NCBI RefSeq assembly: GCF_003344885.1
Contig: NZ_CP031155.1
Span: 310,001 to 374,000 of the forward strand
Length of the DNA stretch: 64,000 bases
DNA from: Altererythrobacter sp. ZODW24
Lineage (GTDB): Bacteria > Pseudomonadota > Alphaproteobacteria > Sphingomonadales > Sphingomonadaceae
Direction of reading: 5' to 3'
Positions 4,957-27,947 of this stretch are shown piece by piece; position 1 is the first letter of the stretch, and each line of letters opens with the position of its first letter. Under the pieces are notes generated by a model, which ran no database searches, had not been told where the DNA came from, and saw only the letters and a program-made list of their open reading frames with translations. A program made the translations under genes and the position numbers.

Positions 4957-5337
4957 CTAAACCAAAAGAGCCAAAGCCCAGAAACCGGCAGTGAGCAAAA
5001 TGCCCAGGACCGGTGAGGCGATGGACCACATCTTGTTCGTATTGAGTTCGTAACCGGCGCCAATATCCATGACGAAGTGGCGCAGACCGGAAACGAGGTG
5101 ATTGAAGAAGGACCAGCTAATACCAACCAGCACGATGTAACCGACCGGCGACGTCGCGAGTTCGATAAAAGTCGCGTAAGCCGCAGGCCCGGATGCAAGC
5201 GCGCCAAGCCACCACAGGAGCAAAGGCAGCGCACCAAGCGCCAGCGCATCACCCGATACCCGGTGAAGGATCGAAGTCAGCATATGCGGACCCCATTTCC
5301 ATATCTGCAAATGGGGTGAAAGTGGTCGGTTTGCCAT
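4957..5337 (-). CDS. sdhC: Succinate dehydrogenase cytochrome b556 subunit
   Basis: A 126-residue SdhC. The start MANRPLSPHLQIWKWGPHML (5337) is standard for alphaproteobacterial SdhC; longer in-frame versions would add an unconserved tail. The N-terminal SPHLQIWKW and the ILHRVSGDALALG motif (conserved Ser and Arg at the quinone site, entering the first helix) are diagnostic. Three transmembrane segments follow, with LVSGLRHFVMDIG carrying the haem-ligand histidine. First gene of the sdhC-sdhD-sdhA operon; the promoter should lie in the 155-bp region shared with the divergent SDR gene. Confidence 0.95.
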   Translation of the reverse strand: MANRPLSPHLQIWKWGPHMLTSILHRVSGDALALGALPLLLWWLGALASGPAAYATFIELATSPVGYIVLVGISWSFFNHLVSGLRHFVMDIGAGYELNTNKMWSIASPVLGILLTAGFWALALLV

Positions 5338-5492
5338 CGGGGCTCCAGCTTGAAACTCAGGTGTTTGAAGTGTCCTTAGCGAATGCGGCGGACGGTGCAA
5401 GCTGGGACATAGTAGGTATGTGCCCCGTGTGTGGACCACTATGATGCCATCCGCTGCTTGGCCTGCCCGTTCCGAACGACTATCGCAGCAAA

Positions 5493-16568: not shown

Positions 16569-18824
16569 TTAAGCGACGCGGAGGACGGTACCGCCGGCTT
16601 CTGACTGGGTGAATGAGGGCAGTGAGAAGCCCTTGCCGTTCTGCTGGGCAGTCTCTTCATTCATGACAAGCGGGTAATGGCCAGACGGAAGCGCCGCCAA
16701 CGGCATACCGGCAGCGGCCAGCACATAAGGCGACACGCGTGACCGGGTGCAAAGGCCATCGGAGCCGTCAGAAATCAGCGGAACTTCGAATTGCAGCCCT
16801 TGTTTGTCGTTCATCGAACGCCGCACGGTAGCCACCGCCAATTGCCCTTCGCCGAAATCGATCACGAACTGGGTCCCCTTGGGAACATCGTTCAGACCTT
16901 CAATCAGCGCACCTGTCATCGACACGTTGCGCATGGTAACTTCGTAGCGATGATCTTCGTGGATCACGCCGACCTTGCGATAAAGTGTTTTGCGGTCCGA
17001 GCGGTTCATCTCAGGGCCGGTTGGTTTGATGACCAAATTGCCTTCGCTGAGCGTCTCCATGATATCTTCATAGTGCAGCGGCCGGCTGTATACGTAACCT
17101 TGAATGTGGCTGACGCGCAGCTTCGTGATCAGCTCCAGCGTATCGAGTGTTTCGATGCCCTCAGCGGTCGTCTCCATACCAAGCGCCTCGGCCAGGCTGA
17201 CGATGGCCGTGATAATTGCCGCATTGCGGTTGCCCGGCATCGCAGCATCACGCACGAAGCTTTGATCGATCTTGATTTTGTCGAACGGGGCGCTCTTCAA
17301 ATAGGAGAGCGAAGAGTAGCCCGTGCCGAAATCATCAAGCGCCAAGCGGACTCCAAGCTTCTTAAGTGCGCCGAAGGTCTGATCAATGTCCGAACCCTCA
17401 CCCAGAAACACGCTTTCGGTAATCTCAAGCTCGAGCCTGTCTGGTGCAAGGCCAGAATTGGCCAGCGCCGATGTCACCAACTGCGGCAAGGCAGAGTGTT
17501 CGAACTGAATTGGTGATACATTGACTGCAACGCGCGCCGAGCCGGGCCACGATGCAGCATCTTCACAGGCCTTTCGCAGCGCCCATTCGCCAAGCGGAAC
17601 AATGAGATTCGCTTCTTCGGCAATAGGGATGAAGATACCTGGCGAAATCGCGCCGCGTTCCGGATGCTCCCAGCGCATCAGCGCCTCGAAACCAGAAATT
17701 TCGTTCGTGCTGGCGCTGACCACTGGCTGATAGGCAAGCCACATTTCTCCGCGTTCCAACGCATCGCGCAGTTCATCTTCAATTTGGCGTAAATCTTCGG
17801 CGTCGGCGTGAAGGTCAGTCGAGTAGAAGCGATAGCGCCCGCGTCCGTCATTCTTCGCAGCATATAGCGCCAAATCGGCGCTCCGGGTCAGTTCTTCGCT
17901 GGTGATCCCATCATAGGGCGCAATGGCGACCCCGACCGAGGCGCCAATGACGCAGCGCGTGCCGTCGATTGTATATGGCTGCGATATCATGGCGATAATC
18001 TTCTTAGCAGCGTCAGCAACTTCTCCGCGGTCGTCCATGTCTGGAATGATGACTTGGAACTCGTCACCGCCAAGACGGCCAACATCCCAGCCATCCTTCG
18101 CGACGCGGGTCAGGCGCTGTGAGGCTTGCTTGAGCAGTTCATCACCGGCTTGATGACCCAGCGTATCATTGATCTGCTTGAACCGGTCGAGATCGATCAT
18201 CAGCAGCGCGCAGCTGCGTTTCGCGATCTTGTAAGCTTGCAACGCCTTGTCGAGGCGCTGCGAAATCTTGTGCCGGCTGGCGAGGCCCGTCAGCGTGTCG
18301 GAATGCGTCAGGCGGCTGCTCTCATCGCGGCTCTGGCGGTCGGTCGTGACATCAATGCCGCTGCCCCAATAGCCGAGGAATTCACCCTCTTTGCTCAGAT
18401 CCGGCTGCCCCGATACGGACCACCAAATCTCCGGCCCGTCATAATCCGCGCGCACTTCCATGTTGGAGAATTTACTGCGGGTGTTGAGCAGCAGACCGGT
18501 GGTGCGATTGCCTGCACTGCCTTCCGCAAGCTCGTCGTTGAACAGATCTTTGATCGAGGTGCCCAGCATCTCGGACGGTTCGCGGCCCAACCGCTTGGCG
18601 ATGTGATCGGAGACATAGGTCAGCCGCAGTTCGGCGTCGGTTGCCCAGAACCACCCGCGCTTTGAACTTTCGAAGATTTGCGCCAGTTTCGCGAGTTGCT
18701 TTGGCGGGGGGAGAGCTTGCACGACAGGCGCGGCTTCTTTGGGCGCGTTGAAGTACTTCCGCCAGCCTTTGGCAGAAGCATCCGCGCCGCTTTCGGGCCT
18801 TTGTTGGTCGTCAGTCGCACTCAT
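16569..18824 (-). CDS. PAS-GGDEF-EAL-PilZ cyclic-di-GMP protein (paralogue 1)
   Basis: A 751-residue cytosolic protein. A disordered N-terminus (1-45) precedes a PAS domain (about 48-165: RGWFWATDAELRLTYVS, WWSVSGQPDLS), a diguanylate cyclase domain (GRLGGDEF at 249-256), an EAL phosphodiesterase (GFEALMRWEHP about 378-388; LEITESVF; DDFGTGYSSLSYLK; KIDQSF; AEGIET) and a C-terminal PilZ-like domain with NVSMTGALIEG. Catalytic motifs of both enzymes look intact, so it could be bifunctional. There is no RxxD inhibitory site just before GGDEF (KDGW there). The PilZ Arg motif is not canonical. It is closely related in plan to the gene at 25107, but lacks the membrane region. Confidence 0.92.
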   Translation of the reverse strand: MSATDDQQRPESGADASAKGWRKYFNAPKEAAPVVQALPPPKQLAKLAQIFESSKRGWFWATDAELRLTYVSDHIAKRLGREPSEMLGTSIKDLFNDELAEGSAGNRTTGLLLNTRSKFSNMEVRADYDGPEIWWSVSGQPDLSKEGEFLGYWGSGIDVTTDRQSRDESSRLTHSDTLTGLASRHKISQRLDKALQAYKIAKRSCALLMIDLDRFKQINDTLGHQAGDELLKQASQRLTRVAKDGWDVGRLGGDEFQVIIPDMDDRGEVADAAKKIIAMISQPYTIDGTRCVIGASVGVAIAPYDGITSEELTRSADLALYAAKNDGRGRYRFYSTDLHADAEDLRQIEDELRDALERGEMWLAYQPVVSASTNEISGFEALMRWEHPERGAISPGIFIPIAEEANLIVPLGEWALRKACEDAASWPGSARVAVNVSPIQFEHSALPQLVTSALANSGLAPDRLELEITESVFLGEGSDIDQTFGALKKLGVRLALDDFGTGYSSLSYLKSAPFDKIKIDQSFVRDAAMPGNRNAAIITAIVSLAEALGMETTAEGIETLDTLELITKLRVSHIQGYVYSRPLHYEDIMETLSEGNLVIKPTGPEMNRSDRKTLYRKVGVIHEDHRYEVTMRNVSMTGALIEGLNDVPKGTQFVIDFGEGQLAVATVRRSMNDKQGLQFEVPLISDGSDGLCTRSRVSPYVLAAAGMPLAALPSGHYPLVMNEETAQQNGKGFSLPSFTQSEAGGTVLRVA

Positions 18825-19970: not shown

Positions 19971-20192
19971 ATGAGCATCACCATTCACAAAAACTTCCTG
20001 AAAGAGGGCGACCCAGCCCTCACCTACCCGCATGGCAAGACCTACTCGCCGCTGCATCCAAAGGGCGTGCCGAATTTGCCGGAGTGCGGCGATGAGCAGT
20101 ACGAGCGGGAGCGGATGGTGCGGGAGTGGCTAACTAAACTTCAATGTGATGATATTCGCGATGCCAATTTAAAAACGCAGGGTGTGGCTTAG
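19971..20192 (+). CDS. Small protein of unknown function (73 residues)
   Basis: A 73-residue reading frame with a plausible Shine-Dalgarno (AGGACC about 8 bases before the ATG). The protein is hydrophilic and protein-like in composition: MSITIHKNFLKEGDPALTYP, a Pro/Gly-rich middle with PLHPKGVPNLPECGDEQYER, and a helical C-terminus. No transmembrane segment or known motif. Its 3' end overlaps the 3' end of the convergent HNH endonuclease gene by 59 bases. It is isolated in the accessory segment. It may be real, but support is limited to RBS and composition. Confidence 0.45.
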   Translation: MSITIHKNFLKEGDPALTYPHGKTYSPLHPKGVPNLPECGDEQYERERMVREWLTKLQCDDIRDANLKTQGVA

Positions 20193-21030
20193 ATGCTAGA
20201 CGCTCGGGTACCAATGCTCGGCCAGTATTGTTAACAATCGCCTCGACACTCTGTCGATCATTGACCTTTCTTGAGATCACAATTTCGTGATCGTCAGCAA
20301 GGCTGATTAGACCGCGATCAAACATCCAGTGCGCTGTACCTGATAGCGCCAACCCGTTCTGAATGCTATCAGGCCCGTTGTGCTCAACAGGTCTTATGTG
20401 AGCGGCCTGAACTTCGGCGCGACCCCCGCCGTTCAATAGCTTCCATCCTGTCACAGCGCATTGATTGTCATAAGCTGCCAACACGGCCCGCCTGAACAGC
20501 TGATCACGCTTTTTACGCGAAACGAGCGTTTGGATAATAGGTCGATCTACCTCAAATGGCGCCTGCTCGTCTTTGACGCGGTTCTCATCGCTGGCCTCAT
20601 CTACACGCGGCAGAAAATCGTCATCATTTGGTAGGCCCGCCTCTACAATACGAGCGAAGTCCGGCCCAGACAACGGCCGAACTGCGGCTTGAGCCCGTCC
20701 TGAGAGGGCACCTGCCGCGTTCAGCAGTCCTTTTTCGATCGGACCATCGGCGCTGCTGAAGGGCACATTTTTCGCAAAGTCGATATATGATCCGGGCTCA
20801 ATTAGTGCCAGATACATATCGGCCTTTGTCGGATCAGGAATGATCTTTTCAATCTTTGCAGCGGCGAAGTACCCTCGAGAATTCGCTACTTTCTTTGGCT
20901 CTAAATAAATGATCCAACTACCGACTGAAGGCATCGCTCGCGAGAGATATTGCGTGGGAAACTGATATCGAGTGGCAGGACTGTCGTCATATATAGAGTC
21001 CGCTCGATGAAGAAATACCGCGAATGACAT
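20134..21030 (-). CDS. HNH endonuclease (predicted restriction-type nuclease)
   Basis: A 298-residue protein. The C-terminal HNH domain is clear: YDNQCAVTGWKL, then EVQAAHIRPVEHNGPDSIQN with the catalytic His region, then GLALSGTAHWMFDRGLISLA. This H-I-x-P ... N-G-(L)-x-L ... H-x-x-F-D-x-G pattern is shared with predicted restriction endonucleases of the COG3440 type. The N-terminal 110 residues (PSVGSWIIYLEPKKVANSRG, YFAAAKIEKIIPD, YIDFAKNVPF) look like a PUA/EVE-like modified-base reader domain, which is an inference from pattern only. Such fusions usually restrict modified DNA. There is no methyltransferase next to it. Codon use is less GC-rich than in the core genes nearby, which fits horizontal transfer. 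Confidence 0.8.
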   Translation of the reverse strand: MSFAVFLHRADSIYDDSPATRYQFPTQYLSRAMPSVGSWIIYLEPKKVANSRGYFAAAKIEKIIPDPTKADMYLALIEPGSYIDFAKNVPFSSADGPIEKGLLNAAGALSGRAQAAVRPLSGPDFARIVEAGLPNDDDFLPRVDEASDENRVKDEQAPFEVDRPIIQTLVSRKKRDQLFRRAVLAAYDNQCAVTGWKLLNGGGRAEVQAAHIRPVEHNGPDSIQNGLALSGTAHWMFDRGLISLADDHEIVISRKVNDRQSVEAIVNNTGRALVPERLASKPHPAFLNWHREYHHIEV

Positions 21031-21113
21031 ACTTATACCAACCGTAAACGGCCGAAAAATGCAAATATATTTAGCGGCCGCCTTGTATTAAAACGGCAAT
21101 CTACTAATTTAAG

Positions 21114-21251
21114 CAGGCTTACTTGGGCGATGATCGCGGCAGGCGGGATTTCCGCGCTGACCATGAATCATTGCCACTGCTTGGCCCAGGCGAATGCCGA
21201 AGCCACGTTCGTGCGGCACGGGCCTTTGGGAACCGCTGCAGGGTATAGCGC
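21114..21251. repeat. 138-bp direct repeat, copy 1
   Basis: Identical base for base to 21496-21633 by my reading (offset 382). It begins CAGGCTTACTTGGGCGATGA and ends GCAGGGTATAGCGC. Inside, GGCCC (21183-21187), GCCG (21196-21199) and CAC (21204-21206) can pair with GGGCC (21220-21224), CGGC (21214-21217) and GTG (21211-21213), a potential hairpin. Copy 1 lies in the 644-bp stretch between the HNH gene and the reverse transcriptase, which has no convincing gene. The first 80 bases of that stretch, next to the HNH start, are AT-rich and probably hold its promoter. Confidence 0.9.
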
Positions 21252-21495
21252 CGACCCGTCGGACGAAACTGAGCTAGCTGTAGCTGTTATCATTAAGGGT
21301 AACTGTCGGGCGGCTAGTAGCATTAATTTCGATGGCGGGGCGGAGGCCGGACGCGCGCTTTCGCGCCTTGCCAGCAGGCCCAAAAAGGCTACGCTAAGGT
21401 GAGGAGTGATGACGTGAAGAAGACATGCAAAAACGTGCCAACTTTCGGGCACGGACTGGTGAATTAGCTCTCGCGATTGCGAAGTTGTTGTTCGC

Positions 21496-21633
21496 CAGGC
21501 TTACTTGGGCGATGATCGCGGCAGGCGGGATTTCCGCGCTGACCATGAATCATTGCCACTGCTTGGCCCAGGCGAATGCCGAAGCCACGTTCGTGCGGCA
21601 CGGGCCTTTGGGAACCGCTGCAGGGTATAGCGC
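21496..21633. repeat. 138-bp direct repeat, copy 2
   Basis: Perfect second copy of 21114-21251, separated from it by 244 bp of unique sequence. It ends 41 bp before the preferred GTG start of the reverse transcriptase, so it would lie in or form the 5' leader of that gene. The same internal hairpin is available. The two copies diverge sharply at both ends. Confidence 0.9.
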
Positions 21634-21674
21634 TCCGTCAGACGGGTTTGGCGTACCGACAGGACCCGCAAGAC

Positions 21675-23015
21675 GTGAAACAAACTTTGGCGAAAAAAGC
21701 CCGGAAATTCAAAAACCTTGAAGATGCTTGGCGCGTCATTCAGCGAAATGGTCGCTATTCAAAATCTGATGAGATCAGACACGATATCGAGGCGTTTGCG
21801 GAGAACGCGACTTCACACCTGCGCTCAATCCAACATCGGCTTTCTCGAGACCAATTTGAGTTTGGCAAAGCTAAGGGTGTGCCGATCAAGAAATTAGATG
21901 CTCAAGGACGGCCAACAGGTAAAATTCGACCAATTGTGATTTCACCTCTGGAATCACGTATAGTTCAGCGGGCAGTTTTGAATGTACTTAATGATGTCCC
22001 TCAACTGCAAGGCTATATCAAGACCCCGTACAGTTTCGGCGGCCTTAGGAAAGATGCAAAGCCCCAGTCTCCGCAGGACCTAAATCTCTCGGCCGTGCCA
22101 GCCGCAATTAGTTCAATTTTAAGCGAGATAGGAAATGGTGCTCGATGGGTTGCATGCGCAGACATTTCCGCTTTTTTTACGAAGATATCCAAAGCTTCGG
22201 TCTTGAACATTGTTAAGTCCGGTTTGAACGGCGACACTGAATTTTTTGAGCTAACTAAAAAGGCAGTTTCAGTCGAGTTGTCAAACCTCACAGAAATGCG
22301 AAATTTTGCTGACGATTTCCCAATTGAAGATATGGGGGTCGCACAGGGGAACTCTCTTTCTCCACTCCTCGGCAATATCACACTTGCTGCATTTGATGCA
22401 GAAATGAACATCGGAGACTGCGCCTGTATCCGCTATATCGATGACTTCATAATTCTCGGTCCAACTGCAAAAGCAGTCAATGCAAGGCTGAGAAAGGCTG
22501 CTAGCTTACTCAACGCGTTGGGGATGGATTTGTCGCCTGAGAAATCGAGCAAGAAGGCGCAAGAAGTAGAAAAGGGTTTCGAGTTTCTTGGTATAGAAAT
22601 CGCTGCGGGTCTTATTCGTCCTGCAGCGAAATCCAGATCAAGATTTCTGTCAAAGGTGACTTCGTCACTCAGGGAAAGTGAACGCGCAATACTTGGTCTA
22701 AAACACGGAAATAGAATAACAAAATCTCTCTCTGTGATCCAAACCTTAAAGAGGATTGATGGAATTGTGGACGGTTGGGGAAAACACTATTGGTTCTGCA
22801 ATGATGGGAAGACTTTTAGAGATCTAGATATAAGCATCAGGAAATACATAGAAAGCTACCTTTCAACCTATCACAATATCAAGCAATCGCTTAAAGAAGA
22901 GCAAAAGCACCTTCCACTTGGTATTCTAGAGCTTGGTCAGAGATCGAAGCACTCATTCCAATTTCCGTCATTGCAATCAAACGATGGGTCGATTGACGGC
23001 AAAGTGACCGCTTAG
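21675..23015 (+). CDS. Group II-like reverse transcriptase, no intron recognised
   Basis: A 446-residue RT (GTG start at 21675 preceded by AGGACC; an ATG at 21576 inside repeat copy 2 would add 33 residues that look uncoded). RT blocks in order: GKIRPIVISPLESRIVQRAV; WVACADISAFFTKI with the first catalytic Asp; GVAQGNSLSPLLGN (Q-G-x3-S-P, not the S-Q of diversity-generating elements); IRYIDDFIILG with the YIDD centre at about 254-257; and KGFEFLGIEI. The C-terminus, RIDGIVDGWGKHYWF then KTFRDLDISI, resembles the group II intron maturase motif. There is no endonuclease domain. The gene is clearly AT-richer than its surroundings. Candidates: a degenerate retroelement, or a group II-like or defence-type RT. 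The catalytic core appears complete. Confidence 0.85.
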   Translation: MKQTLAKKARKFKNLEDAWRVIQRNGRYSKSDEIRHDIEAFAENATSHLRSIQHRLSRDQFEFGKAKGVPIKKLDAQGRPTGKIRPIVISPLESRIVQRAVLNVLNDVPQLQGYIKTPYSFGGLRKDAKPQSPQDLNLSAVPAAISSILSEIGNGARWVACADISAFFTKISKASVLNIVKSGLNGDTEFFELTKKAVSVELSNLTEMRNFADDFPIEDMGVAQGNSLSPLLGNITLAAFDAEMNIGDCACIRYIDDFIILGPTAKAVNARLRKAASLLNALGMDLSPEKSSKKAQEVEKGFEFLGIEIAAGLIRPAAKSRSRFLSKVTSSLRESERAILGLKHGNRITKSLSVIQTLKRIDGIVDGWGKHYWFCNDGKTFRDLDISIRKYIESYLSTYHNIKQSLKEEQKHLPLGILELGQRSKHSFQFPSLQSNDGSIDGKVTA

Positions 23016-23229: not shown

Positions 23230-25047
23230 CTACTCCTCCCCCATCCGAAGCGCAGCAATAAACGCCTCCTGCGGAATAGACACATTGCCATATTCCCGCA
23301 TCTTGGCCTTGCCCTTCTTCTGCTTGTCCAAAAGCTTCTTCTTGCGGCTGATGTCGCCGCCGTAGCATTTGGCCGTCACGTCCTTGCGCATTGCCGCAAT
23401 CGTCTCGCGGGCGATGACTTTGCCGCCGATGGCGGCCTGGATCGGCACTTTGAATAGGTGGCGCGGGATCAGGTCTTTTAGCCGTTCGCACATGCCGCGG
23501 CCGCGGCTTTCGGCGACGTCGCGGTGGACGATCATGCTGAGCGCGTCGACCGGCTCGTTATTCACCAGAATGCTCATTTTCACCAGATCGCCTTCGCGCA
23601 GGCCGATCTGTTCGTAATCGAAGCTGGCATAGCCGCGGCTGATCGATTTCAGGCGGTCGTAGAAGTCGAACACCACTTCGTTGAGCGGCAGTTCATACGT
23701 CACTTGCGCGCGGCCGCCCACGTAAGTCAGATCTTTCTGGATACCGCGGCGATCCTGGCACAGCTTCAATATGCTGCCGAGATGTTCGTCGGGGGTGTAG
23801 ATCACCGCCTTGATCCATGGTTCGTCGATCTGTTCGATCCGGCTGGGATCAGGATAATCAGACGGGTTGTGCAGCATGATCTCGCGCGCGTCATCGTTGC
23901 GGCTTTTGCTCAGCTGGATGCGGTAGACGACCGATGGCGCGGTGGTGATGAGGTCGAGGTCATATTCGCGCGTCAGCCGTTCCTGAATGATCTCCAGATG
24001 CAGCAGGCCGAGGAAGCCGGCGCGGAAGCCGAAGCCCAGCGCGGCGCTGCTCTCCATCTCGAAGCTGAAGCTGGCGTCGTTGAGCCGCAGCTTGCCGATG
24101 CTTTCGCGTAATTTGTCGAAATCCGCCGCGTCGACGGGGAACAGGCCGCAGAACACCACGGGCTGGACTTCCTTATAGCCTTCCAGAGCCTCCGTCGCGC
24201 CGCCCTTCACCGTGGTGATGGTGTCGCCGACCTTGGCCTGTTCGACTTCCTTGATCTGCGCGGTGATAAAGCCGATTTCGCCGGGGCCGAGTTCGGGCAG
24301 TTGCTCGATCTTGGGGCGCATGCAGCCGACGCGGTCGATCAGATGCTGCGTGCCGCCTTGCATAAATTTGACGTTCTGGCCCTTCTTCAGCACGCCTTCG
24401 AGCACGCGGACGAGGATGACCACGCCGAGGTAGGGATCGTACCAGCTGTCGACCAGCATAGCCTTGAGCGGGGCGTCGCGGTCGCCCTTGGGCGGGGGGA
24501 TTTTGGCGACGATGGCTTCGAGCGTTTCTTCGATCCCGATGCCCGATTTGGCGGAAGTGAGGACGGCCTCCGAAGCGTCGATGCCGATGATGTCTTCGAT
24601 TTCCTTGCGGACCATTTCAGGTTCAGCCGCGGGGAGGTCGATTTTGTTGATGACGGGGACGATTTCGTGGTCATGCTCGATGGATTGGTAGACGTTGGCG
24701 AGGGTTTGCGCCTCTACCCCTTGCGCCGCGTCGACGACCAGCAGCGCGCCTTCGCATGCGGCGAGGGAGCGGGAGACCTCGTAAGCGAAGTCGACATGGC
24801 CCGGTGTGTCCATGAGGTTGAGCTGGTAGGTCTTGCCGTCCTTGGCCGTGTAATCGAGGCGGACGGTCTGGGCCTTGATGGTGATGCCGCGTTCGCGTTC
24901 GATGTCCATGTTATCAAGGACTTGCTCCGACATCTCGCGCGCGGTCAGGCCGCCAGTGTGTTGGATTAGGCGGTCAGCCAGCGTCGACTTGCCATGGTCG
25001 ATATGGGCAATGATGCTAAAGTTACGAATAAGAGCAAGGTCAGTCAT
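23230..25047 (-). CDS. lepA: Elongation factor 4 (back-translocating GTPase)
   Basis: A 605-residue LepA, full length. G1 is [14 protein letters not shown] near residue 13-26, G2 [15 protein letters not shown]3 [18 protein letters not shown]4 [10 protein letters not shown]. The LepA-specific C-terminal domain ends in [12 protein letters not shown] ... [14 protein letters not shown], with the KRQKKGKAK-type basic tract ([18 protein letters not shown]) before it. It acts on stalled ribosomes and in initiation-complex assembly. Apparently monocistronic, bounded by the accessory segment downstream and the second GGDEF/EAL gene upstream. Confidence 0.97.
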
Positions 25048-25106: not shown

Positions 25107-27827
25107 TCAGCCTGCTTTACGGATTGACCTCTGTGCCACTTCACCGCCCAATACCTTGCCGGCGGCACTTAGCTTTACGGGGTTGGCGAATTCGATGCCC
25201 ATGCGGTCCTTCGTGCACCAACGCGTGGTGGCGGTGACCGTTTGCGTTTCACTCAGTGCGATGGTGAAGATTGTACCGACTGGTACGTTCCACAGCCCCT
25301 CCACCAGCGCTCCGGTCGTAGAGATATTGCGGATAGTCCCGTTGTAGAACTGCCCGTCATGATCGAGCACGATTTTGCGGAGCATAGTCTGCCTAGAAGC
25401 GCGTGCTGAACGCGGTCCCTTGGCCAAAGCTTGAAGCCCCGATTCAAGGCGCTCAAAGGCTGCGTCCGCGCTCAGGGCTTTCTCGTAAATATAGCCTTGG
25501 ATGTGGCTGCATCCGTGCATGCGAACTAGGTCCAACTCATCAAGCGTTTCCACGCCCTCTGCAGTGGTGTCCATACCTAGCGCATGCGCAAGGCTAGTGA
25601 TCGACGCGATAATCGCGCCATTGCGGCTGCCAGGCTCTGTCGCGCCTCGCACAAAGCTCTGATCGATCTTAATCTTATCGAACGGCGCTTTCTTCAAATA
25701 GCCAAGTGAAGAGTAACCGGTCCCGAAATCATCCAGCGCTAGACGTACACCAACGCCCTTTAGCGCAGCAAACATGGCGTCAGTGCCTTCATCATCGTTG
25801 AGGAAGACACTTTCTGTGATCTCAAGCTCCAGCCGCGACGGGTGAATGCCGTTCTGGGCCAAAGCGCTTGTCACAATGGCAGGCAGCTGTGGGTTGGCAA
25901 ATTGCAGTGCAGAAACATTGACTGCGCAGCGCACGTTTTCAGGCCATTTGGCCAAGTCATGGCACGCGGTGCGCAAGGCCCATTCGCCAATCGCACCGAT
26001 GAGTCCGGCATCCTCGGCAATAGGAACGAATCTTGCTGGAGAAATCCAGCCCTGCTTTGGATGGTTCCAACGCAACAGGGCTTCGAACCCCGCAATCTGC
26101 TCAGTCGCCGTAAGAACTACCGGCTGATAGAATAGCTCGAGGCCGCCTTGTGAAATCGCGTCGCGCAAATCGCTTTCAAGCTCACTGCGTTCTTCGGCCG
26201 CCGAGTGGAGATCGTTTGAATAGAAATGATAACGCCCGCGCCCACCATCCTTCGCAGCATATAGTGCAAGATCCGAATTACGGATCAGGGCTTCGCTGGT
26301 AACGCCGTTTGCTGGCGATCGCGCAATGCCGAGTGACGCGCCGATAACGACCCGCTGCCCGTCAATGGAGTATGGCTGCGAGAGGCTGCCGATTATTTCA
26401 TGCGCGAGGTTTGCGAGCTTTTCAGGCTCTTCCCGGCCTGGGATCAAAATCTCGAACTCGTCGCCGCCCAAGCGACCTACCCGGCCAAGCTTGCCAACAG
26501 TTGCCTCTAACCGCTGCGCGACTTGTTTGAGCAAGGCATCACCCGCTGGATGGCCCATGGAATCATTGACCTGTTTGAACCGGTCAAGGTCGAGCAAGAA
26601 GATCGCACACTCCCGCTGCGTTTCGTGTGGTGCCGCGAGAATTTTCTCTAGTGACTGCGCCATCTGGAAACGGTTCGCTAGGCCGGTTAGGGAGTCGTAA
26701 TGCGCTAGACGGGAGGCGTTCTCCTGACTGCGCTTTTTCTCGGTAAGATCGGTTCCTGATCCGCGAAAGCCAACGAAGTTCTGGAAGCTATCATACATCG
26801 GACGGCCGCTGACCGACCACCAACGCTCTTCATCGATACGGGCAGCTCGGACGGGCAGCTCATGAAATGATGAACGCGCCGACATGTGAAATGTCAGCGT
26901 GCGCTCGCCCTCTTGACGATCTTCGCCAAGGTTGAATATCTGTAAGAACGGCTTGCCTAGCAGCTCCTTTTGCGAACGCCCCAATGTCTTGGCGACCCGC
27001 GGTGAGACATAGCTCAACAGCCCGCGGCGATCGGTTTCCCAAAACCAACCAAGCCCTGCATCCTCATACTCGTTGAGCATGGAACGGAACCGGTTGTGAT
27101 GCCGCCGCTGTTCTTCTCTGCGAGAGGCGGCCTTCTTCGCGAGCAATAGCTGGTGCCGTGCGACAACAACGAGCACGGCGGCCGCCGCACCAAGGGAGGC
27201 CATCGCTTCAAAGCTTCCGTCCATCACACAGACCGGCGCCCAAGCGCAGAGAATTGCCATGAACAGTATCGGCAATCTGCGGCTCAGCAACGTGGAGGTG
27301 AAAGCGTTGAACGAAATCAGCACTCCGACGCCCCAACGCCAATCGAGCGTGCCGTATTGCAGCCAATAGCTTTGGGCAAAGCTCGCTAGCAAAATCGGCA
27401 AGAAGACTGTGAAACTGACGGCGACAGCGACCAAGTGCTTCGGCCGCTCTTCCGCACGTTCCCAAGCGACTAATTTGCGGCTGGAGGCGGCGATCGCCGC
27501 CGCAATAATCGCGGTAACAATGGTTGGCCAAGGTGCGAAATTGAAGGATACCAGCATCCCCGAGGCAAGCGGCGCCAGCACCACCAAAGCCATCAAATAC
27601 CAGTCGTTCGGGATAAGCCCGTAACGTGCCTTCTGTTGAACTTTCTGCGCGTCCCGGCGCTCCGCATTGATGCGGCGTTGTAGTTCGGGCCGCTTTGTAT
27701 CGGTCAGGTTTTTGGCTGCCCCTTCCGCTGTGCTTTCTGTCAGCGCAGCTGGCACAAGCGGGCGGGCGCCATCATGCGCTGCCGAGCCATCTAAATCTGG
27801 CTGACTCTCTTGTGCTAACCCGCCCAT
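25107..27827 (-). CDS. Membrane PAS-GGDEF-EAL-PilZ cyclic-di-GMP protein (paralogue 2)
   Basis: A 906-residue protein starting at ATG 27827; the longer version would run into the phaC upstream region. After a hydrophilic N-terminus, about residues 65-235 hold five or six transmembrane helices, followed by a PAS domain (LGWFWETDRRGLLSYVSPR), GGDEF (GRLGGDEFEILIPG), EAL (GFEALLRWNHP, LEITESVF, DDFGTGYSSLGYLK, KIDQSF, AEGVET) and a PilZ-like C-terminus (NISTTGALVEG). Both catalytic sets appear intact; no RxxD I-site precedes GGDEF. The protein is built like the one at 16569 with an added membrane sensor. Probably a c-di-GMP switch responding to a membrane signal. Confidence 0.92.
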   Translation of the reverse strand: MGGLAQESQPDLDGSAAHDGARPLVPAALTESTAEGAAKNLTDTKRPELQRRINAERRDAQKVQQKARYGLIPNDWYLMALVVLAPLASGMLVSFNFAPWPTIVTAIIAAAIAASSRKLVAWERAEERPKHLVAVAVSFTVFLPILLASFAQSYWLQYGTLDWRWGVGVLISFNAFTSTLLSRRLPILFMAILCAWAPVCVMDGSFEAMASLGAAAAVLVVVARHQLLLAKKAASRREEQRRHHNRFRSMLNEYEDAGLGWFWETDRRGLLSYVSPRVAKTLGRSQKELLGKPFLQIFNLGEDRQEGERTLTFHMSARSSFHELPVRAARIDEERWWSVSGRPMYDSFQNFVGFRGSGTDLTEKKRSQENASRLAHYDSLTGLANRFQMAQSLEKILAAPHETQRECAIFLLDLDRFKQVNDSMGHPAGDALLKQVAQRLEATVGKLGRVGRLGGDEFEILIPGREEPEKLANLAHEIIGSLSQPYSIDGQRVVIGASLGIARSPANGVTSEALIRNSDLALYAAKDGGRGRYHFYSNDLHSAAEERSELESDLRDAISQGGLELFYQPVVLTATEQIAGFEALLRWNHPKQGWISPARFVPIAEDAGLIGAIGEWALRTACHDLAKWPENVRCAVNVSALQFANPQLPAIVTSALAQNGIHPSRLELEITESVFLNDDEGTDAMFAALKGVGVRLALDDFGTGYSSLGYLKKAPFDKIKIDQSFVRGATEPGSRNGAIIASITSLAHALGMDTTAEGVETLDELDLVRMHGCSHIQGYIYEKALSADAAFERLESGLQALAKGPRSARASRQTMLRKIVLDHDGQFYNGTIRNISTTGALVEGLWNVPVGTIFTIALSETQTVTATTRWCTKDRMGIEFANPVKLSAAGKVLGGEVAQRSIRKAG

Positions 27828-27947
27828 CCGCTCGCGGTGCCAGAACTCTGTGTTGAAACGGTTAACACCGCAGTCACGAATTACCGCAAAACCGCGATTT
27901 TCCATGGTTTCGCCTGCCTCAACTTGCCAACCTCAATACTGCCGTGC

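Follow-up and report, generated by a model that had tools for sequence, protein, structure and literature searches.

Direct repeats upstream of a G2L4-type reverse transcriptase: proposed overlapping ends of a small, circularly permuted gene

Organization of the locus

The window analyzed here, that is, the whole stretch of DNA, comprises 64,000 nt of Altererythrobacter sp. ZODW24 (NZ_CP031155.1, 310,001–374,000; assembly GCF_003344885.1). As listed in Table 1, two direct repeats, designated A and B and separated by a spacer, precede a reverse transcriptase (RT) gene. The initial annotation had described them as identical 138-bp copies, and its coordinates proved exact: 138 of 138 bases match between A and B, whose starts are 382 bp apart. 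It had also proposed a search for further copies, many unrelated ones being the sign of a generic repeat. In the whole 2.81-Mb genome (2,813,282 bases, one contig), the 138-bp unit was found at two places only, indicating that the window repeat is not a generic one. The likely RT start is the GTG at 21675, with 41 nt between the end of B and this codon, and the RT open reading frame (ORF) stays open back to an ATG at 21576, within B.

The HNH-domain protein encoded beside the repeats scored 104 bits against the NCBIfam model of a phosphorothioated-DNA restriction endonuclease, which is below the cut-off of 180. In a P. aeruginosa plasmid relative, the neighbors of the RT include a TIR-domain protein and a recombinase. 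No Rfam family matched the whole window at gathering scores, or the region 20950–21720 at E ≤ 1.

Table 1. Features of the repeat–RT region and its surroundings (window positions)
Feature	Position	Strand	Remarks
GGDEF-EAL protein with PAS domains	16569–18824	−	Flanks the region
HNH-domain protein	20134–21030	−	Pfam HNH_2; opposite strand, immediately upstream of the repeats
Weak promoter-like sequence	21083–21113	+	TTGTAT-N16-TAATTT, directly upstream of A; in the window alone p = 0.76, not significant
Repeat A	21114–21251	+	138 bp; reading frame continues into 21250–21402
Proposed C-terminal part	21250–21402	+	50 codons open past A in the frame of the repeat, then stop
Promoter-like sequence	21368–21395	+	TTGCCA-N16-TACGCT inside the spacer; found by eye, no statistic; holds the first A5 run (21382–21386)
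98-aa ORF as the genome reads	21425–21721	+	Start, hydrophobic segment, repeat B, tail
Proposed N-terminal part	21425–21496	+	Within the 98-aa ORF
Conserved ATGCAAAAACGTGCCA motif and hairpin	21425–21453	+	Hairpin directly after the motif (21434–21453); start of the proposed N-terminal part
Repeat B	21496–21633	+	138 bp, identical to A
G2L4-type RT	21675–23015	+	446 aa from GTG; YIDD active site
lepA	23230–25047		
GGDEF-EAL protein with PAS domains	25107–27905	−	Flanks the region; PilZ above cut-off in this one only

Identity of the reverse transcriptase

Judged from its sequence, the window RT is a G2L4 (group II intron-like 4) RT. A profile of 25 sequences, from the window and relatives, was compared with solved structures; the G2L4 RT chains scored 398 (9d5x) and 396 bits, and the next family scored 177 bits. 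Furthermore, a Foldseek search with the AlphaFold model of the window RT (pLDDT 90.3) gave G2L4 RTs as all four top matches, with 34% identity to 9d4s and 29% to 9d5x. When the crystallized G2L4 chain was added to the tree, it fell inside subclade I, beside loci L026 and L072 (SH-aLRT 99; 49% identity). A search for the genomic locus of this crystallized P. aeruginosa protein gave no match. The clade with this PDB chain has 32 rows and a support of 99, and its subclades of 23 and 9 rows have supports of 99 and 100, respectively, all of them SH-aLRT values from a quick method without bootstrap. We refer to subclade I as G2L4 and to subclade II as its sister. The active site is YIDD in the window and in 19 of the 22 subclade I loci, the exceptions being L009 (YVDD), L030 (FIDD), and L032 (YLDD). 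The nine subclade II loci have YADD or YVDD; thus, YIDD as a family mark holds for subclade I only. Alignment with eight outgroup RTs showed that the window RT carries the RT3a insertion before the AQG motif, shorter by two residues than that of the PDB protein.

Profile collections gave lower-level matches. In PADLOC, the window RT scored 125.5 bits with the generic RT model and 106.6 bits with RT_UG17, the latter over part of the profile only. RT_UG17 was also the best-scoring named UG group for the members scanned (95–133 bits). A DRT10 label, derived from PADLOC, was dropped because the search of solved structures gave G2L4. True UG17 members were sought for the tree, and none was obtained from 150 genomes, where the controls were likewise silent (0 of 14). 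The NCBIfam Drt2 model, with a cut-off of 390 bits, gave 34.6 bits for the window RT and about 35–49 bits for six members. A group II intron was also rejected, as no Rfam intron RNA lies beside the RT and the NCBIfam group II maturase model gave 128.8 bits, below its cut-off of 300.

The first paper on G2L4 repair is reportedly that of Park and others in 2022. As described in passages of PMC12337344, the G2L4 RT acts in double-strand break repair by microhomology joining; it favors strand annealing and begins synthesis on short homologies.

Distribution of the repeat pair among related RTs

Relatives were drawn from genome contigs (3 loci), from 197, 385, 398, and 396 sampled genomes (overlapping draws), from viral contigs, and from plasmids; further scans yielded none. 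The clade on the tree has 31 rows without the PDB chain, the window included. A direct-repeat pair was found upstream of the RT in 24 of these 31 members (17 in subclade I and 7 in subclade II), and in none of the nine RTs outside the clade on the same tree. In the 24 loci, the repeats are 94–150 bp long with an identity of 0.963–1.0, their starts are 339–453 bp apart, and the gap from B to the RT start used is 18–103 nt. No third copy was detected in the 993–1,500 nt scanned upstream. Among the pair-bearing loci are some from IMG/VR contigs and plasmid records, and from both Alpha- and Gammaproteobacteria; L085, almost the same as L084, and duplicate retrievals of a single place are not counted among the 24.

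The position of the pair upstream of related RTs is conserved, and its sequence is not. B copies of different loci share 0.44–0.98 identity (11 locus pairs compared), while A and B within a locus share 0.96–1.0. Ten of 23 loci have no A/B difference at all, and the rest have 31 in total. Since the repeats differ among loci and yet agree within each locus, the copies are homogenised repeatedly. The initial annotation had taken the perfect identity as a sign of recent duplication or active maintenance; a recent duplication is not supported, as the layout is old and its copies are kept alike. It had also offered the footprint of an inserted element. The perfect identity in the window would fit such a footprint, or a recent chance duplication, but it is contradicted by the recurrence of the layout, with different sequences, at 24 loci, and we give this explanation hardly any credence. 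Its suggestion that the repeats belong to something that the RT uses is supported by their distribution inside and outside the clade; the accompanying picture of a retron-like hairpin RNA misses the overlap of a permuted reading frame described below.

A single copy is kept in four relatives, identified by alignment in L004 and L007 and by eye in L031 and L091, and AAAAAC is absent from the 700 nt upstream in all four. An RT kept with one copy, as in these loci, is the expected remnant of a deletion between A and B. The RT of L091 is interrupted by a stop at codon 392 (of 448); further upstream, this locus carries an unrelated 272-bp repeat. No pair was seen upstream of the RTs of L083 and L035. 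L032 was left unjudged because its upstream sequence is absent; L032, L101, and L102 all have too little of it. L008 consists of an RT minus its N-terminal part, without a repeat.

Among 40 other weak RT matches off the tree (L074 included, and some with short upstream sequence), none has this layout. Other kinds of repeats were noticed at L018, L039, L042, L041, L070, and L074. The RTs of L039, L042, and L018 are ~660–675 aa long and lie outside the clade, with imperfect repeats ~130–590 nt upstream whose periods are 68, 69, and 67 or 202 bp, respectively. These are perhaps another RT with a repetitive template. L074, a distant RT match (5001–5381), has a 102-bp pair of 87% identity, 1,380 bp apart, one copy of which overlies the RT start.

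A permuted reading frame across the repeats

We next consider the reading frame that passes through the repeats. In all 24 loci, this frame stays open for at least 44 codons past A, as the +1 frame does in 5 and the +2 frame in none. Past B, the same frame is open this far in two loci (L009 and L103). In 20 of 24 loci, a hydrophobic stretch of 19 residues (mean hydropathy ≥1.6) precedes B or coincides with its beginning; the corresponding place at A has one in a single locus (L099). The four loci below the threshold at B are L003 (1.54), L033, L096, and L097. In the other two frames, such a stretch was found in 0 of 22 loci. Upstream of A, six or fewer codons are open in 8 of 24 loci, leaving hardly any room there for a start of its own. 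In a comparison with shuffled spacers over 22 loci, the Fisher p was 3.9e-6 for openness and 7e-20 for the hydrophobic segment; of the 24, L072 and L093 were left out as nearly identical to L026 and L015, respectively. Taken locus by locus, openness reached p < 0.05 in 4 of 24 and was not significant in most.

A hydrophobic start before B, together with openness past A, indicates that the N-terminal context lies before B and the C-terminal context after A. A tandem or circular (repeat+spacer) product would therefore join the two parts. In the window, the joined frame would comprise 24 codons from the ATG at 21425, 45 codons of the repeat, and 50 codons after A. From these patterns, we interpret the repeats as the place where the ends of a small, circularly permuted gene overlap; in our reading, this overlap, unlike a retron-like hairpin RNA used by the RT, is their main point.

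Two alternatives bear on this pattern. The repeats could belong to two ordinary small genes, or to a gene and its decayed duplicate, with the B frame encoding a membrane protein that partners the RT, and A being an upstream paralogue whose likeness is maintained by gene conversion. The B frame indeed has a genomic start and a hydrophobic segment, and the annotation of P. aeruginosa includes an ORF of this kind. Nevertheless, the frame is open past A in every locus despite the few open codons upstream of A in eight of them, B closes sooner in 22 of 24, and duplication gives no reason for so complementary a pattern; we regard this explanation as quite improbable. More improbable still is retrohoming without mutation in the manner of diversity-generating retroelements (DGRs), in which A would be the template that the RT copies into B, a target lying where a small gene ends. 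The placement of A near the RT and of B towards the 3′ end of the small gene, and the likeness of A and B, would suit it. However, the 31 A/B differences (23 loci) have no adenine bias, as copy A has an A at 8 of the 31 and is 18% A; the RT is G2L4 and not a DGR RT; and the open frame past A would be unexplained.

Returning to the permuted gene, the two subclades differ in unit length. The subclade II units are 342, 339, 375, 399, 342, 453, and 381 bp, all multiples of 3 (7 of 7), and the frame is open all round the unit in all seven loci; for L015, L093, and L097, such an all-open frame also occurs in 42–56% of same-length shuffles. In subclade I, the unit is a multiple of 3 in 1 of 17 loci (L003, 369), and the 382 bp of the window is not divisible. 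For six groups of relatives, codon positions were counted on DNA alignments made without regard to frame. The third-position share of differences was 0.336 in the N-terminal part, 0.396 in the repeat (a slight excess), and 0.321 in the C-terminal part. With no third-position excess in the two outer parts and a slight one in the repeat, the amino acids are not visibly conserved. Openness and hydrophobicity are kept, and the residues are not visibly so.

An antisense frame of the DRT2 type was tried and rejected: the longest antisense frame of the concatemer reached p < 0.05 against shuffles in 0 of 14 loci, and the sense frame did so in 5 of 14. The lowest antisense value (p = 0.06) came from L019, which is open on both strands. 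In the spacers of L026, L029, L099, L005, and L090, the stop of the C-terminal frame was seen by eye to overlap the next start (ATGA or TTGA), an arrangement that resembles translationally coupled genes.

RNA structure, promoter-like sequences, and the AAAAAC motif

The 138-nt unit of the window folds at −60.1 kcal/mol (z −2.05), and 7 of 200 shuffles were equally stable; a separate run gave p = 0.065. Over 22 loci, the repeats are jointly more stable than their own shuffles (Fisher p 4e-8), most of them not being significant alone. In five window-like loci, 11 of the 53 pairs predicted for B and the stretch to the RT are changed on both sides, and the covariation term is only −0.84. On these predictions, the repeat unit looks like a structured RNA. 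A closing stem between A and B was rejected: the minimum-free-energy fold of the window pairs A with B, but over 24 loci, A–B pairs are not enriched (601, against 659 when the repeats are shuffled). The hairpin directly after AAAAAC is supported (13 loci, p 3e-4). No support was obtained for a hairpin behind the first A5 run (Fisher p 0.54 over 13 loci) or for structure past B (p 0.13 over 22 loci). Over all 24 loci, near-copies included, a promoter-like sequence adjoins A with a Fisher p of 2e-5.

The AAAAAC motif also concerns the start of the proposed N-terminal part. Starts with a ribosome-binding-site-like sequence lie in the AAA AAC frame, one off the hydrophobic frame, in L001, L005, L010, L026, L029, L072, and L103, as they do in L030 (a TTG far upstream) and L092 (a GTG past the motif). 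L090 and L094, which are without the motif, have a start in frame. In-frame candidates were found as well in L003, L005, L009, L029, L030, L072, L099, L103 (closed soon), and L104. The start scan gave third-frame candidates in other loci and missed some starts that are visible by eye. These frames suggest that a frameshift or slippage at AAAAAC (window 21414–21453 and the same place in relatives) is possible; L009 and L092 would need the same frameshift to remain open. As a search handle, ATGCAAAAACGTGCCA was unproductive: seven of the eight viral stretches matched gave no RT match, and the sequence available around them, down to 381 nt on the downstream side in L076, had neither a Y[IV]DD motif nor a pair of repeats.

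A model of gene assembly by reverse transcription

We propose, at roughly even odds, that the RT copies an A–spacer–B RNA and jumps between the repeats, and that the resulting tandem cDNA rebuilds a gene for a membrane protein that is probably anti-phage. As suggested by the promoter-like sequences in the set, the RNA would begin near A and run through the spacer and B. The RT would copy this template from B back to A. At the 5′ end of the RNA, the cDNA complementary to A would pair with the identical B and be extended again, a jump akin to retroviral strand transfer or the rolling-circle copying of DRT2. The product would be a tandem (repeat+spacer) cDNA. At each junction, the start and hydrophobic segment from the 3′ end of the spacer would run into the repeat and then into the C-terminal part from the 5′ end of the spacer. 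After second-strand synthesis, the joined frame could be expressed as a complete small protein that has a single membrane segment, or as an endless frame in the second subclade. Such a protein would most likely stop the growth of infected cells.

Copying with strand transfer was ranked likeliest because the layout tracks the RT, G2L4 RTs anneal strands and prime at microhomologies, and DRT2 offers a precedent. This precedent and the neighbors (the TIR-domain protein and recombinase; the HNH gene) are the grounds for the presumed role in defence. Against the copying model, the start with the best placement often lies in a different frame where the AAAAAC motif is present, the RT is kept with one copy in four relatives, and L083 and L035 have no pair. 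The codon-position counts, the openness that most loci do not reach significantly by themselves, the frequent all-open shuffles of L015, L093, and L097, the weak promoter match of the window before A, and the sense orientation of the frame, where DRT2 has antisense transcripts, also count against it. Furthermore, 3 nt of homology suffices for the DRT2 jump in the account given in parts of PMC11100668, compared with the 94–150 bp here.

The main rival is a switch by DNA recombination, in which crossing-over between A and B would excise a circle or duplicate the unit in tandem, thereby joining the gene, with the RT acting elsewhere or as an annealing helper. Long direct repeats recombine readily, and repeats of 94–150 bp fit recombination better than RT jumping. 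The single-copy loci L004, L007, L031, and L091 likewise match the outcome of an A–B deletion (L031 and L091 by eye). However, the layout follows one RT clade, no third copy was seen in the upstream sequence scanned at the 24 loci, and recombination alone leaves the RT unexplained. We consider this rival unlikely.

If the copying model is true, the actual work of a family of enzymes known from DNA repair may be the assembly of hidden genes, and genes that come into being only through reverse transcription would have a second example, from a different RT family. G2L4 RTs, of which structures have been solved, have been described as enzymes domesticated for DNA repair; the permuted, repeat-flanked coding unit, which stands beside most members examined (24 of 31 on the tree), is a candidate for their natural template. 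Somewhat more tentatively than the model itself, we suggest that the G2L4 family and its sister clade are gene-assembling RTs that natively turn a repeat-flanked, permuted template RNA into tandem cDNA for a membrane effector, that some lineages frameshift or slip at AAAAAC, and that the repair activity is a side effect of strand annealing for the A-to-B jump. Hidden genes of this kind can be found by sequence, from a shared frame with a start before one copy only and a continuation after the other only.

Comparison with known systems

The G2L4 RTs of known structure (PDB 9d4s and 9d5x) belong to the same family as the window RT: the crystallized protein lies within subclade I, has YIDD and the RT3a insertion, and is the best match by sequence and fold. 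In the passages of PMC12337344 and PMC13015716 found by term search, direct repeats, template RNA, and gene neighborhood are not discussed, and the terms “noncoding RNA” and “gene neighborhood” occur in reference titles only. Among the matches listed in the literature (titles and beginnings of abstracts), none reported a permuted gene, or repeats in direct orientation, beside G2L4 RTs, and an earlier remark on these repeats may exist.

DGRs similarly have two near-identical repeats of ~100–150 bp beside an RT; unlike theirs, the A/B differences here are not adenine-directed, and the RT groups with G2L4. In the R regions of LTR retroelements, the same sequence at both RNA ends allows strand transfer. 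The identical RNA ends proposed here would permit the same, although both repeats lie upstream of the RT and the genome of the window has one pair.

DRT10/UG17 is comparable in that RT_UG17 is the best named UG group in PADLOC and DRT10 makes tandem-repeat cDNA from an upstream noncoding RNA, with a 9-nt motif according to parts of PMC12632851. In contrast, the units here are hundreds of bases long and the RT belongs with G2L4. A SLATT gene, a DRT10 feature, had no match among the ten window proteins scanned, the neighbors of the RT included.

A precedent for the product is DRT2, where tandem cDNA makes a gene (PMC11100668 and PMC12039810, in part). As stated in sections of PMC12039810, DRT2 units are divisible by 3 with the neo frame open throughout, the majority of the conserved residues of Neo follow nucleotide motifs, and its codons favor hydrophobic residues; sections of PMC11100668 describe junction-spanning transcripts antisense to the noncoding RNA. 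The locus described here resembles DRT2 in having a permuted gene beside an RT, where tandem cDNA would create the frame, and in a hydrophobic product with little-conserved residues. Divisible-by-3 units and a never-ending frame are shared by subclade II; most subclade I units (16 of 17) have a length that is no multiple of 3, and the frame there runs into a stop. Unlike DRT2, the RT is of another family, with a Drt2 model score far under the cut-off, the frame is sense, and the place of a 3-nt jump site is taken by a repeat of 94–150 bp that is present twice in the genome.
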